Source: a virus
Direction: 5' to 3' (one strand)
DNA length: 34,022 nt
Virus record (IMG/VR): IMGVR_UViG_3300000117_000113
Location: 1 to 34,022 of that record
Position 1 is the first letter of the stretch. Each line of letters begins with the position of its first letter. This document shows, piece by piece, positions 27,459 to 31,179 of the stretch. The notes below the pieces were generated by a model. It did not search any database. It saw only the letters and a list, made by a program, of their open reading frames with translations, and was not told the origin of the DNA. Made by a program: the position numbers and the translations under genes.

Positions 27459-27818
27459 TTATTTAACTGATTTTTCGTAATAAAGTATTATTTGTTTTTG
27501 TTGTTCTATATACCTTTTAATTTGTTCTAAGCTAATAGCTAAATTGCTAAAAGACTGAGGATCTAGTCCGTAAATAACGAAGTAACCTTTCTTTTCTTTC
27601 ATAGTTTTAATTACTTCATTAACATTTTTCTCAGTAATTACTGTCATATTCATATCTGCAAACGTTAACGGCTCAGGATGATCTACTATCATAATTGTAG
27701 GTTTTATAATCTTTGTCTCAGTAACCACTTTGGGTTCTGGCATAAAAGAACAATTACTTAGTAGAAGAACGAGTAGTAATGCTTTTGATAGTATCAAATA
27801 GCTTTTTAGCTTTCTCAT
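27459..27818 (-). CDS. Lipoprotein, possible outer-membrane spanin (o-spanin-like)
   Basis: The leader MRKLKSYLILSKALLLVLLL ends in LSNC, a lipobox with lipidated Cys23. The mature part has a Val/Thr/Lys stretch and then a mixed alpha/beta C-terminus (KKGYFVIYGLDPQSFSNLAI). The gene starts inside the 3' end of the inner-membrane gene and overlaps it by 65 bases, the layout of Rz/Rz1 spanins. If so it would bridge the envelope with its partner to disrupt the outer membrane at lysis. The length (119 aa) is larger than many Rz1 proteins. Confidence 0.65.
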   Translation of the reverse strand: MRKLKSYLILSKALLLVLLLSNCSFMPEPKVVTETKIIKPTIMIVDHPEPLTFADMNMTVITEKNVNEVIKTMKEKKGYFVIYGLDPQSFSNLAISLEQIKRYIEQQKQIILYYEKSVK

Positions 27819-28140
27819 TTATCGATCCTTCCACACGTTTTGGGTCAGCCATAGAGTTTTTAACTATGTCAGTTTTTGCTAATAGTCCTGCAATTTGTTT
27901 ATTTTGTTTATCGGCTTCGTTTAACTTTGCATTTAAATCTTTACTAAGATTTAATTGTTTAGTTAAGTTTTCTTTCATGGTTTTCATAGTTTCGTTCTGT
28001 GTCTGGATGACACCTTCTAACTTAGCTTGATTTCCTACAAGCGTAGTTATACGTGCCTGGGTATTTTTGAAATACCAAGCGAACCCAGCTGCCATCACAG
28101 CCATAACCATAAGTGAGCCTATAAACAGTTTCATTCCCAT
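27754..28140 (-). CDS. Inner-membrane coiled-coil protein, possible i-spanin
   Basis: Begins MGMKLFIGSLMVMAVMAAGF, one N-terminal membrane helix followed by a long periplasmic coiled coil (ITTLVGNQAKLEGVIQTQNE, MKENLTKQLNLSKDLNAKLN) and a basic end. This topology is that of Rz-like i-spanins, and the overlapping lipoprotein gene supports it. The start is unusual: a TATAAT promoter places transcription on the ATG at 28140, and the next ATG is only two codons away. No ribosome binding site is visible. Confidence 0.7.
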   Translation of the reverse strand: MGMKLFIGSLMVMAVMAAGFAWYFKNTQARITTLVGNQAKLEGVIQTQNETMKTMKENLTKQLNLSKDLNAKLNEADKQNKQIAGLLAKTDIVKNSMADPKRVEGSINEKAKKLFDTIKSITTRSSTK

Positions 28141-28177: not shown

Positions 28178-28645
28178 TTAAAATTTAGATAGCCACCTAG
28201 CTATGTGATGAACCCAAGGTAGTAACATTACTGCCATAAAGAGATTAGCACCGCTATGAGCCAAAGCTATTCTTAAAGTATCTCCTTTGGGCATGCCATC
28301 AGATACTAAAAAACCAGCTAACCAAATGGTGCCGGTTGTACCGATATTAGCCCCTAGTACAGCTGCTATTGCCGCGGGCAGAGGTATTGCTCCCGATGCT
28401 ACTAAAGCTATTATAGCAGTTGTAGAAAGAGATGAAGATTGCCATAATAACGTCATGACTATTCCACCTATAAACATATACATCGGATTACCTAAAAAGA
28501 AGTTTAAGTGTTCTAAGTTTCCCATGGATTTCATTCCACCTGAGAACATTTTAAGACCTATATAAAAAATTACAAGTCCGAAGAGTACCGTGATTACGGG
28601 ATTTCCTAATTCCATTTTACCTACCTTTTTAATTAATTCTTTCAT
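28178..28645 (-). CDS. Minimal Na/Pi cotransporter-family protein (155 aa)
   Basis: The protein has the family's conserved substrate-site repeat once: TLLWQSSSLSTTAIIALVAS (QSSS at 69-72) and VLGANIGTTGTIWLAGFLVS (GANIGTT at 98-104), among about four membrane helices. Full Na/Pi-II proteins are several hundred residues with two such inverted repeats; this is one half, so it would have to dimerise. GGAGAAAGTTA precedes the ATG and four Pho-box-like repeats lie upstream. A phosphate-uptake role during infection is inferred from family and context. Confidence 0.8.
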   Translation of the reverse strand: MKELIKKVGKMELGNPVITVLFGLVIFYIGLKMFSGGMKSMGNLEHLNFFLGNPMYMFIGGIVMTLLWQSSSLSTTAIIALVASGAIPLPAAIAAVLGANIGTTGTIWLAGFLVSDGMPKGDTLRIALAHSGANLFMAVMLLPWVHHIARWLSKF

Positions 28646-28662
28646 TAACTTTCTCCAAAAGT

Positions 28663-28684
28663 AAAAAGTAGGTCATTAACCTAC
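28663..28684 (-). terminator. Terminator-like hairpin before the transporter gene
   Basis: On the minus strand GTAGGT (28684-28679), a 5-base loop and ACCTAC (28673-28668) form a 6-bp stem followed by TTTTT (28667-28663). It can end transcription of the oxygenase gene upstream. If transcription starts at the Pho-linked TATAAT it forms the 5' end of the transporter mRNA and could attenuate it. Confidence 0.6.
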
Positions 28685-28685
28685 A

Positions 28686-28725
28686 TATTACAATTATATT
28701 ACACAAATGTTACAATTTTATTACA
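28686..28725 (-). promoter_or_regulatory. Four tandem Pho-box-like repeats with -10 TATAAT
   Basis: Reading the minus strand, TGTAATA, TGTAACA, TGTAATA and TGTAATA start at 28725, 28714, 28703 and 28692. The period is exactly 11 bp, as 7-bp repeats separated by 4-bp A/T-rich spacers, as in PhoB-binding Pho boxes (TGTCATA direct repeats, 7+4). A perfect TATAAT lies at 28698-28693, about 9 bases after the second repeat. The downstream gene encodes a phosphate cotransporter-family protein. Confidence 0.7.
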
Positions 28726-28735
28726 TTTTAAAAAT

Positions 28736-29593
28736 TTAATAACTCTGACTTAATCGCCACATTAAATATTCTTTACTCTCAATAGGTTCATATTTTGCAG
28801 GCTCATTAGTAAGATTTTCAACAATAGTGCCTGGAGTAGGATCTACAAAATGTGGCATACTGTACCTTGGAATATGTATATGGCTATTTACCACTCTGTG
28901 TTTTGTACTAACAAAATAATCGTTAGTCCAACGTTGTAGTAAGTCACCGATATTAACTACAACACCATTTTTTTCGTAAGGTACTGGGTGCCAAACACCG
29001 TTTAAATCTTGTACTTCTAATCCTGGTACATCATTAATCTGCCAAAGTAGAGTAACAGTTCCATAATCACTATGCTCACCTATTCTTAATTGTTTATCTT
29101 CTAAAGAGCCAGTATACGCTGGATAATGTATAACTCTTGTGGTATTATACGGTTTTAAATGTGAATTAACTAATACTGAATCTGTCTCTAATATAGTGTC
29201 AAACTTTTCTAAGATTTGTAGTGTAAGTCTATCTGCAATGTCAATAGTTTGTAATGCATTTGATTTAAATCCATTTATAGTAGGCCATAACTCATTAGGC
29301 ATTCTACTGTTATTATAATTAAAACTTTCTTTCATATCCTTTGGTGCATTAGGATCTACGTTTTCTGCACCCATAACTGAATAACCTAAGTTGTTTTTAG
29401 CTTGATATTTGTATTTATTTTTTTCTTCTAAATCTTGTTTAAAAAATTCTTTCATTAAATCAAACCACACATTCATAGTAGTTTGATCTTTAGAAGCTAA
29501 TGTGTTTTTAAATACAGCGAAGCCTACACTAGTGTAGGCTTCTTCTATATGCTTTAAATGATTGGTATCATTAAAGTCTATTATTGGTATCAT
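28736..29593 (-). CDS. Isopenicillin N synthase-like 2OG-Fe(II) oxygenase
   Basis: The 285-residue protein has the complete ligand set of the family. EHSDYGTVT gives H174/D176, STKHRV gives H232, and PRYSMPHF gives R243/S245 for 2-oxoglutarate. The N-terminal MIPIIDFND and FAVFKNTL strands and the MKESFNY loop fit DIOX_N/2OG-FeII_Oxy proteins. In alphaproteobacteria such oxygenases sit near BMP-type nucleoside transport genes, and here the BMP gene lies 2 bases upstream. Oxidation of a nucleobase or related small molecule is plausible but unproven. Confidence 0.88.
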   Translation of the reverse strand: MIPIIDFNDTNHLKHIEEAYTSVGFAVFKNTLASKDQTTMNVWFDLMKEFFKQDLEEKNKYKYQAKNNLGYSVMGAENVDPNAPKDMKESFNYNNSRMPNELWPTINGFKSNALQTIDIADRLTLQILEKFDTILETDSVLVNSHLKPYNTTRVIHYPAYTGSLEDKQLRIGEHSDYGTVTLLWQINDVPGLEVQDLNGVWHPVPYEKNGVVVNIGDLLQRWTNDYFVSTKHRVVNSHIHIPRYSMPHFVDPTPGTIVENLTNEPAKYEPIESKEYLMWRLSQSY

Positions 29594-29595
29594 TT

Positions 29596-30663
29596 TTATT
29601 TACCAGGCACTTTAGCGTCAATACCTTCAACATAGTACATCATACTATTAAGATGTGCATCACTAGCAATCTCTCCGTCTTTCAACTGAAGTTTACCTGT
29701 GTTGTCTTTGATAGGACCAGTAAAAGCAAAATACTTTCCATTGGTAATACCATCTTTAATCTTTTGTGCAAATGCTTTTACATCGTCTGGCATATTAGTA
29801 AATGGTGCCATCTGTACAACATCATCTTTCATGTGCCCAAAGTAATCACCACTCTTCCAAGTGCCGTCCATTACTGCTTGTACTTTTTCAATATAGTATG
29901 GTGACCAGTTGTCAATAGTTGCAGTCAACTGAGCTTTAGGAGCAAACTTATATTGGTTTGATGCTTGACCAAAACCTAGTACGCCTGCTTTTTCTGCAGT
30001 CTGCAATGGAGCAGGTGAATCAGTATGCTGAGCAACCATATCACAACCTTCTGCAATCATAACCTTAGCGGCTTGTGCTTCTTTACCTGGATCGTACCAT
30101 GTATTAACCCATACGATATCAATATCAACATCTGGATTAACCGACTTAGCACCTAAGTAATACGTGTTAATTTCACGAATAACTTCTGGAATTGGAAATG
30201 CACCAACGTAACAAATTTTGTTAGTCTTAGTCATCATACCTGCAATTACACCTTGTACGTGTCTGGCTTGGTATAATCTCAATCCATAACTTGCCATGTT
30301 ATCTGATTGCTTATAACCTGTAGCATGTTCAAATTTTACATTTGGAAATTCTTTTGCTACTTTAAGCATAGGCTCCATGTAACCAAAACTTGTTGCAAAT
30401 ATAATATCTGCTCCACCTTTGGCCATAGCTCTGATTGCACGTTCTGCGTCAGGTCCATACTTTACACTTTCAATGTAAGTGGTTTCAACTTTGTCTCCAA
30501 AATGCTTTTCAACATCTTGTCTTCCTATATCGTGTCTATAAGTCCATCCATGGTCGCCAGTTGGGCCAACATAAATAAATCCGACTTTTGTCTTATTTTC
30601 AGCATGTGCAACACTGAAAAACATAACTGATAGTGCAACTATCAATAGTTTTAGTAGTTTCAT
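29596..30663 (-). CDS. BMP-family periplasmic substrate-binding protein
   Basis: A 355-residue protein with a clear signal peptide (MKLLKLLIVALSVMFFSVAHA-type, cut before ENKT). The BMP/Med type I binding fold follows: VGFIYVGPTGDHGWTYRHDI, GGADIIFATSFGYMEPM, AHVQGVIAG-like helix and QHTDSPAPLQTAEKAG. Family members bind nucleosides or related compounds for ABC importers; no permease or ATPase gene is adjacent, so it would have to use the host's. Conserved through its full length. Probably acquired from the host and used as an auxiliary metabolic gene. Confidence 0.9.
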   Translation of the reverse strand: MKLLKLLIVALSVMFFSVAHAENKTKVGFIYVGPTGDHGWTYRHDIGRQDVEKHFGDKVETTYIESVKYGPDAERAIRAMAKGGADIIFATSFGYMEPMLKVAKEFPNVKFEHATGYKQSDNMASYGLRLYQARHVQGVIAGMMTKTNKICYVGAFPIPEVIREINTYYLGAKSVNPDVDIDIVWVNTWYDPGKEAQAAKVMIAEGCDMVAQHTDSPAPLQTAEKAGVLGFGQASNQYKFAPKAQLTATIDNWSPYYIEKVQAVMDGTWKSGDYFGHMKDDVVQMAPFTNMPDDVKAFAQKIKDGITNGKYFAFTGPIKDNTGKLQLKDGEIASDAHLNSMMYYVEGIDAKVPGK

Positions 30664-30718: not shown

Positions 30719-30740
30719 TTAAAAAACCGATATATCGGTT
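30719..30740 (-). terminator. Rho-independent terminator after lysozyme
   Basis: On the minus strand AACCG (30740-30736), ATATAT loop and CGGTT (30729-30725) followed by TTTT (30724-30721). The stem starts at the lysozyme stop codon. It is followed by the gap that must hold the start of the BMP unit; no clear promoter was found in that gap. Confidence 0.7.
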
Positions 30741-31179
30741 ATACAGCTCTCATTCGATCAACTAATCTTTGAGCGCGTTTTGTTACTTGGCGATACCATC
30801 TGCTATCAACCATTTCGTCTGCGGCTGCGTTCCAATCTCTCGCATCCACACCTCTTTTCATACCTTTAAATTTAGATAATCTAGGTCTACCCATATTAAA
30901 CATCATATTTGCAATTATTCGTTTAGCTTCTTCAGGTAAATCATCAAAGTCAGAATAAAGTTTATGGCAGTCAGCTATAACTGTTTTAACATCTTCGTTA
31001 AAAACAGAGTCACATCTTTCCTTACTAACTTCTACTCCTACTTCCCAACCATGTTCAGGGTCAGACTCACGTACAAGATGTCCAATACCAAAAGTAGGCA
31101 ACCCAAGATGATCTAAGTATATTTTCTGAACATTTCCTTCATCATATTCAATTTCTTCTCTTAATTTATCTATATCCAT
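30739..31179 (-). CDS. T4-type lysozyme (GH24 endolysin)
   Basis: The 146-residue protein has YDEGNVQKIYLDHLGLPTFG, in which E14, D23 and T29 match the catalytic E11-D20-T26 of T4 lysozyme. IGHLVRESD and MMFNMGRPRLSKFKGM follow, and the C-terminal helix is WYRQVTKRAQRLVDRMRA. It cleaves the N-acetylmuramic acid-N-acetylglucosamine bond of peptidoglycan. No signal peptide, so export would need a holin or pinholin. Ends in a terminator. Length is close to T4 lysozyme (164). Confidence 0.93.
   Translation of the reverse strand: MDIDKLREEIEYDEGNVQKIYLDHLGLPTFGIGHLVRESDPEHGWEVGVEVSKERCDSVFNEDVKTVIADCHKLYSDFDDLPEEAKRIIANMMFNMGRPRLSKFKGMKRGVDARDWNAAADEMVDSRWYRQVTKRAQRLVDRMRAV

Follow-up and report, generated by a model that had tools for sequence, protein, structure and literature searches.

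The 34,022-nucleotide stretch of viral DNA analysed here (hereafter, the window) raises a question of gene control: what is the role of a regular array of short repeats that lies directly upstream of a phage Na/Pi cotransporter gene? On the minus strand, from 28725 to 28686, four copies of the heptamer TGTAAYA occur without a mismatch, namely TGTAATA (repeat 1, 28719–28725), TGTAACA (repeat 2, 28708–28714) and TGTAATA twice more (repeat 3, 28697–28703; repeat 4, 28686–28692), and the 4-bp spacers AAAT, TTTG and TAAT give the array a period of 11 bp. It is the sole match to four TGTAAYA-N4 units in the window, even allowing three mismatches, and such a match was absent from all 100 dinucleotide shuffles. 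The array starts 10 bp past the stop codon of a 2OG-Fe(II) oxygenase gene; after the array come a hairpin, a Shine-Dalgarno sequence GGAG (28653–28656, minus strand) and the cotransporter ATG at 28645. The answer developed here is that the element is very likely a host-controlled phosphate-starvation promoter for the phage gene; the repeats, their spacing, the −10 and the genes are shown, and PhoB binding and phosphate dependence are inferred.

Within the array lies a −10 element, TATAAT (28693–28698, minus strand), 9 nt past repeat 2. An initial annotation, made from the sequence alone, had described four exact TGTAAYA repeats with an 11-bp period at 28725, 28714, 28703 and 28692, and a TATAAT 9 bases after the second repeat (28698–28693), and both claims held. 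Two details were absent from it. Repeat 3 shares its final two bases with the start of the −10, with repeat 4 abutting the −10 and covering the predicted start site, and there is no −35 hexamer: a TTGACA-like sequence was sought 16–18 bp from the −10 and is absent, the sequence there reading AATAAA, ATAAAA or TAAAAT. The array meets the criteria of a PhoB box, i.e., TGTNAYA-like 7-bp direct repeats, 4-bp spacers, nine nucleotides to the −10 and a replaced −35. The cyanobacterial Pho box has the consensus CTTA-N7-CTTA (PMC3037559), and no CTTA occurs on the minus strand of 28686–28725. Repeats 1 and 2 are very likely a conserved, putative activator site, for which there are no PhoB binding data.

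The gene behind the array (28178–28645, minus strand) encodes a 155-amino-acid protein that matches PF02690 (Na_Pi_cotrans) with an E-value of 3.6e-16 and 59.9 bits, the curated cut-off being 29.1. It aligns separately to both halves of SLC34A2 (9z60) and contains one repeat only, leaving the criterion of an SLC34-type two-repeat chain unmet; it is therefore a half-size protein that would need to dimerise, and its transport of phosphate is inferred. No relatives were found among phage isolates. PF02690 was also not found in the eight SAR116 genomes searched, and thus there is no host Na/Pi promoter for comparison. The neighbouring genes, all on the minus strand, are the 2OG-Fe(II) oxygenase gene (28736–29593, PF03171/PF14226), a BMP/PnrA-like ABC substrate-binding protein gene (29596–30663, PF02608), a phage lysozyme gene (30739–31179, PF00959) and, downstream, an Rz-like spanin gene (27754–28140, phrog_739). 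The BMP gene has 240 viral relatives and the 2OG gene 205, and in phages a 2OG gene is often next downstream of BMP.

Arrays of four TGTNAYA repeats are not diagnostic by themselves, and therefore the architecture was tested instead, the diagnostic unit being two repeats, N9 and a −10 rather than the four-repeat array. A scan of IMG/VR for four TGTNAYA repeats was uninformative as a Pho test, with mostly palindromic TGTTACA..TGTAACA arrays beside non-phosphate genes. These four-fold arrays, also of period 11 (L163–L281, e.g., L207:3939 and L235:9268), adjoin a 735-amino-acid ORF without a Pfam match and other phage genes.

The strict motif TGTMAYA-N4-TGTMAYA-N9-TATAAT was found at 62 loci in IMG/VR, and a spacing control with N6 replacing N4 between the repeats gave three, none of them near a phosphate gene. 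The 62 include near-duplicates, and the counts are of loci rather than independent events. Downstream of them are 54 ORFs, of which 17 are PBP_like_2 (PstS), by far the commonest identified cargo, eight are calcineurin-like phosphoesterases (L318, L319, L327, L340, L343, L345, L359 and L367), two are TonB receptors and a single one is a Na/Pi gene, that of L263, the twin of the window. Most of the rest are small or without assignment, and for roughly half of the 62 boxes the gene behind has no known phosphate role. Five of the phosphoesterases were compared and are 37–51% identical to a SAR116 gene adjoining a glycosyltransferase-like gene and the Pho operon; they may possibly correspond to the lipid-remodelling enzyme PlcP, the family being inferred. 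The phosphoesterase of L345 and the PstS of L317 have a 33-nt box promoter in common, and their leaders are almost identical. Small secreted or barrel-like ORFs of about 95–115 amino acids, of the AAPYLEYKYK type, also stand behind strict boxes (L315, L320, L339, L360, L361, L365, L366, L369, L370, L185 and L270), and one of the 54 ORFs matches PF24653 Phage_OMP; it is conceivable that the AAPYLEYKYK-type ORFs are phage porin-like proteins. A PiT-like identity is not claimed for the 330-amino-acid ORF behind the boxes of L356, L358 and L372, which has no Pfam match.

The strongest single argument for the Pho-box reading comes from the surroundings of the promoter, where the box and its flanks are kept while the phosphate-uptake gene is exchanged, a result that is shown. 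The window and L263 have the order lysozyme, BMP, 2OG, box, Na/Pi and spanin. In sister phages (L511/L333, L421/L342, L433/L354, L418/L362, L431/L336 and L474) the order is BMP, 2OG, an extra gene in some, box and PstS. Wherever the contig extends that far, the next gene is a spanin homologue, and several have a lysozyme homologue ahead of BMP. The window shares an identical (18/18) 18-nt core comprising repeats 1 and 2 with L511, L474, L421 and L029, of which L029 carries another Na/Pi gene in different surroundings. An ORF of about 285 amino acids (MTQLISPxKFT...), which we take to be truncated class II aminoacyl-tRNA synthetase or asparagine synthetase-like, lies between 2OG and the Pho box in L425 (4427–5287), L418, L433, L354 and L344. 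A conserved promoter with swapped cargo suggests that the selected trait is phosphate-gated uptake rather than one transporter.

The same architecture is present in bacterial genomes, and its recurrence before viral and host phosphate genes is likewise shown. A search of 58 SAR116-family genomes for TGTNAYA-N4-TGTNAYA-N9-TANNNT returned 11 sites, against four for a reversed control. Eight of these are pstS promoters of the form TGTAACAAAAATGTAATA-N9-TATATT, with repeats TGTAACA-AAAA-TGTAATA and the ATG about 60 bp downstream. The other three (L303, L304 and L305) are orthologous and precede a 121-amino-acid cupin-like gene, possibly a new member of the Pho regulon. In one SAR116 genome (G010), a box with N9 precedes phoB as well as pstS, and the strict motif occurs once in 385 alphaproteobacterial genomes, 62 bp before pstS. 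No three-repeat arrays were found in ten SAR116 and related genomes, and thus the host version of the box is not the four-repeat one. A search for the repeats upstream of host phosphate genes had been proposed as a check in the initial annotation; with the box and N9 at SAR116 pstS and phoB, plus 17 viral pstS genes, it was passed. The central proposal there, host PhoB acting through a box to switch on the phage Na/Pi gene, is thereby supported, binding and phosphate response remaining inferred. Its view of TGTAATA as a one-base variant of TGTCATA arising in an AT-rich host failed, as this is the regular form in AT-rich SAR116, and its suggestion of Pelagibacter as host is probably wrong, SAR116 being favoured by the 87% identity of the BMP protein.

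That the host belongs to SAR116 is likely, on strong but indirect evidence that is not proof, because the BMP protein of the window is 86–87% identical to that of SAR116 single-cell genomes, the PstS of sister phages is 66–77% identical to that of low-GC SAR116, and the Pelagibacter phage Mosig lacks the strict box. Compared with lineages outside low-GC SAR116, among them the other SAR116 group, sister PstS identity is 38–45%; the PstS of L355 is 79% identical to that of this other (not low-GC) group. Among the 80 best BMP loci, none carries a SAR11 name, and the phage GC content is 33% vs. 30–37% in BMP-bearing SAR116 loci. Among the five SAR116 genomes closest by BMP, three (G001, G003 and G004) have no PstC above the cut-off, and given this the true host strain may lack Pst. 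Neither a close phage isolate nor near DNA among isolates was found for the window.

A referee might ask whether viral Na/Pi genes in general are box-controlled. After dereplication, a box with at most two mismatches lies upstream of 6 of 41 viral Na/Pi genes vs. 4 of 342 other genes (p=1.6e-4, or p=9e-4 after dropping the twin of the window). A clear box is lacking upstream of the other 35, and therefore most viral Na/Pi genes do without this promoter; several (the L005 group) have plain sigma-70-like ones, and the Na/Pi genes that follow BMP and 2OG in L411, L513, L516 and L517 have no N9 box promoter. In the L002 group (L002, L010, L012, L014 and others), the Na/Pi gene comes directly after a small ORF ending in KRFNKSVTFKRRGR, which we take to be ribosomal protein S21-like. 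The sequence TTTAACA-AAAG-TGTAACA, which is frequent there upstream of Na/Pi, is a look-alike created by the codons of this ORF; it was rejected as a box, lying inside the C-terminus of the ORF with no −10 at N9.

Between the promoter and the gene is a 7-bp hairpin (28668–28684, minus strand) at the predicted mRNA 5′ end, found by folding and followed by five T residues at 28667–28663. By itself it is modest (−9.2 kcal/mol, z −1.9), and at this position sister phages carry hairpins that are stronger and differ in sequence. In phage pstS and Na/Pi promoters, the 45 nt past the −10 fold into hairpins (mean z −3.1), unlike SAR116 pstS leaders (z about 0), and one other alphaproteobacterium gave z −0.9. 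An Rfam search returned no match, and covariation of the stems is not claimed, as the MAFFT alignment of the leaders misaligns them. The hairpin might shield the mRNA 5′ end or be a weak terminator against read-through, both of which are inferred possibilities.

In the proposed mechanism, repeats 1 and 2 would form a PhoB box replacing the −35, followed 9 nt further on by a consensus −10. When an infected SAR116-type host is starved of phosphate, PhoR would phosphorylate PhoB, which would bind repeats 1 and 2 head to tail and contact RNA polymerase. Transcription would then start, giving a short mRNA with a 5′ hairpin that encodes the phage Na/Pi cotransporter, and the phage would boost phosphate uptake only when phosphate for DNA runs short. 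Repeats 3 and 4 do not fit a simple activator site, as they lie over the −10 and start site, where they are unexpected. Further PhoB may load there and damp or delay the promoter, or these repeats may be neutral; a damping role is a guess, no more than possible. Among the 62 viral box promoters, repeat 3 is present in eight and repeat 4 in five. L185 and L270 have the same four-repeat layout as the window, and most pstS sisters with the same island have neither repeat. PhoB is known to activate or repress depending on the position of its site, with activation needing strict spacing (PMC10294691).

Four alternatives can be set against this reading. The one that survives best accepts the mechanism and places the phage in another alphaproteobacterium (e.g., Pelagibacter or HIMB59). 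Auxiliary genes are able to cross host lines, and the closest cultured phage match of the exonuclease is in the Pelagibacter phage HTVC008M, at only 39%. It is unlikely given the SAR116 identities of BMP (87%) and sister PstS (66–77%), a GC content inside the range of the BMP-bearing SAR116 loci, and a pelagiphage, Mosig, with pstS and without the strict box. A second alternative, that the array is the site of a different OmpR/PhoB-family regulator or of a phage-encoded one rather than host PhoB, draws on the TGTNAYA-like arrays that adjoin unrelated genes in other viruses and on the roughly half of the 62 box promoters that precede genes of unknown role. It is very unlikely, as host pstS and phoB promoters share the repeats, spacer and N9, pstS is the commonest identified viral cargo, and a Pfam/PHROGs scan of the window proteins, which did not cover every ORF, showed no regulator gene. 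Less probable still is a genuine PhoB box whose four repeats, by extending across the −10 and start site, turn PhoB mainly into a repressor, with the gene off in starvation. The overlap of repeats 3 and 4 with the −10 and start site, the position-dependent dual role of PhoB (PMC10294691) and the layout of L185 and L270 speak for it; against it, the sisters keep repeats 1 and 2, N9 and the −10, mostly without repeats 3 and 4, which is an activator geometry, and shutting off a phosphate importer in starvation makes little sense. An ordinary early sigma-70 promoter with coincidental repeats, for which a perfect TATAAT, an AT-rich region and the sigma-70-like promoters of L005-group homologues can be cited, is all but excluded by the empty shuffles, the missing −35, the 62 vs. 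3 loci of the spacing control and the identical 18-nt box in the same slot in sister phages with pstS.

The reading as a host PhoB promoter has well-established precedents. In cyanophages, control of pstS and other genes by host PhoBR is established (PMC10976474), with examples in Synechococcus phage S-PM2d (PMC10976474) and in Prochlorococcus phage P-SSM2, the latter from Zeng and Chisholm 2012 as cited by PMC10976474 and PMC10987575. As there, a phosphate-acquisition gene of a phage stands behind a host-PhoB box, and the phage would read the alarm of its host. In contrast to the cyanophages, whose hosts are cyanobacteria and whose boxes are of the CTTA type or PyTTAAPyPyT/A, the present case has TGTNAYA repeats, an alphaproteobacterial host, a Na/Pi cotransporter and a syntenic swap of cargo. 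The promoter resembles the PhoB promoters of E. coli pstS (TGTCACC-N9-TATTTT) and SAR116 pstS in its 11-bp-period TGTNAYA direct repeats, N9 to the −10 and lack of a −35, but the extra repeats of E. coli pstS lie upstream of the activating pair whereas repeats 3 and 4 cover the −10 and start site, and the phage leader has a hairpin that the SAR116 pstS leader does not. A Na/Pi cotransporter gene is also present in marine phages of the HMO-2011 type, some of them phages of SAR116 and Roseobacter, where PF02690 was proposed as phosphate uptake only, and the bearing passages make no mention of a regulatory site (PMC9038755). The T4-like Pelagibacter phage Mosig EXVC030M (MT647606) similarly carries a phosphate-uptake gene, pstS, which adjoins, divergently, a UDP-diacylglucosamine hydrolase-like gene. 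No TGTNAYA-N4-TGTNAYA-N9 box was found in it within one to two mismatches. Upstream of its pstS (L532:1350–1366) is an 11-bp direct repeat, TGTTAAG-TTTT-TGTTAAA, which could be a SAR11-type variant box.

In the literature searched, which was limited, Pho boxes have not been reported for alphaproteobacterial phages, nor host-Pho control for phages of abundant heterotrophs. What is new here is very likely the extension of host-Pho control from cyanophages to alphaproteobacterial phages with exchangeable cargo, with PhoB binding and phosphate response inferred. A bolder reading, doubtful when taken jointly as a whole, is that a portable Pho promoter cassette (box, −10 and 5′ hairpin) is common to marine phages of alphaproteobacteria and stays in place while its cargo is exchanged among PstS, the Na/Pi cotransporter, a PlcP-like phosphoesterase and small barrel proteins, with repeats 3 and 4 in this lineage as a self-limiting PhoB gate. 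If host-Pho control is true, phages of SAR116, and probably of other alphaproteobacteria, would sense phosphate limitation via the host, and a short DNA pattern would suffice to find phosphate-gated genes in metagenomes, among them genes whose function is unknown. Related viruses with the same switch in the same place and a swapped uptake gene suggest that many ocean viruses read the phosphate alarm of their hosts.
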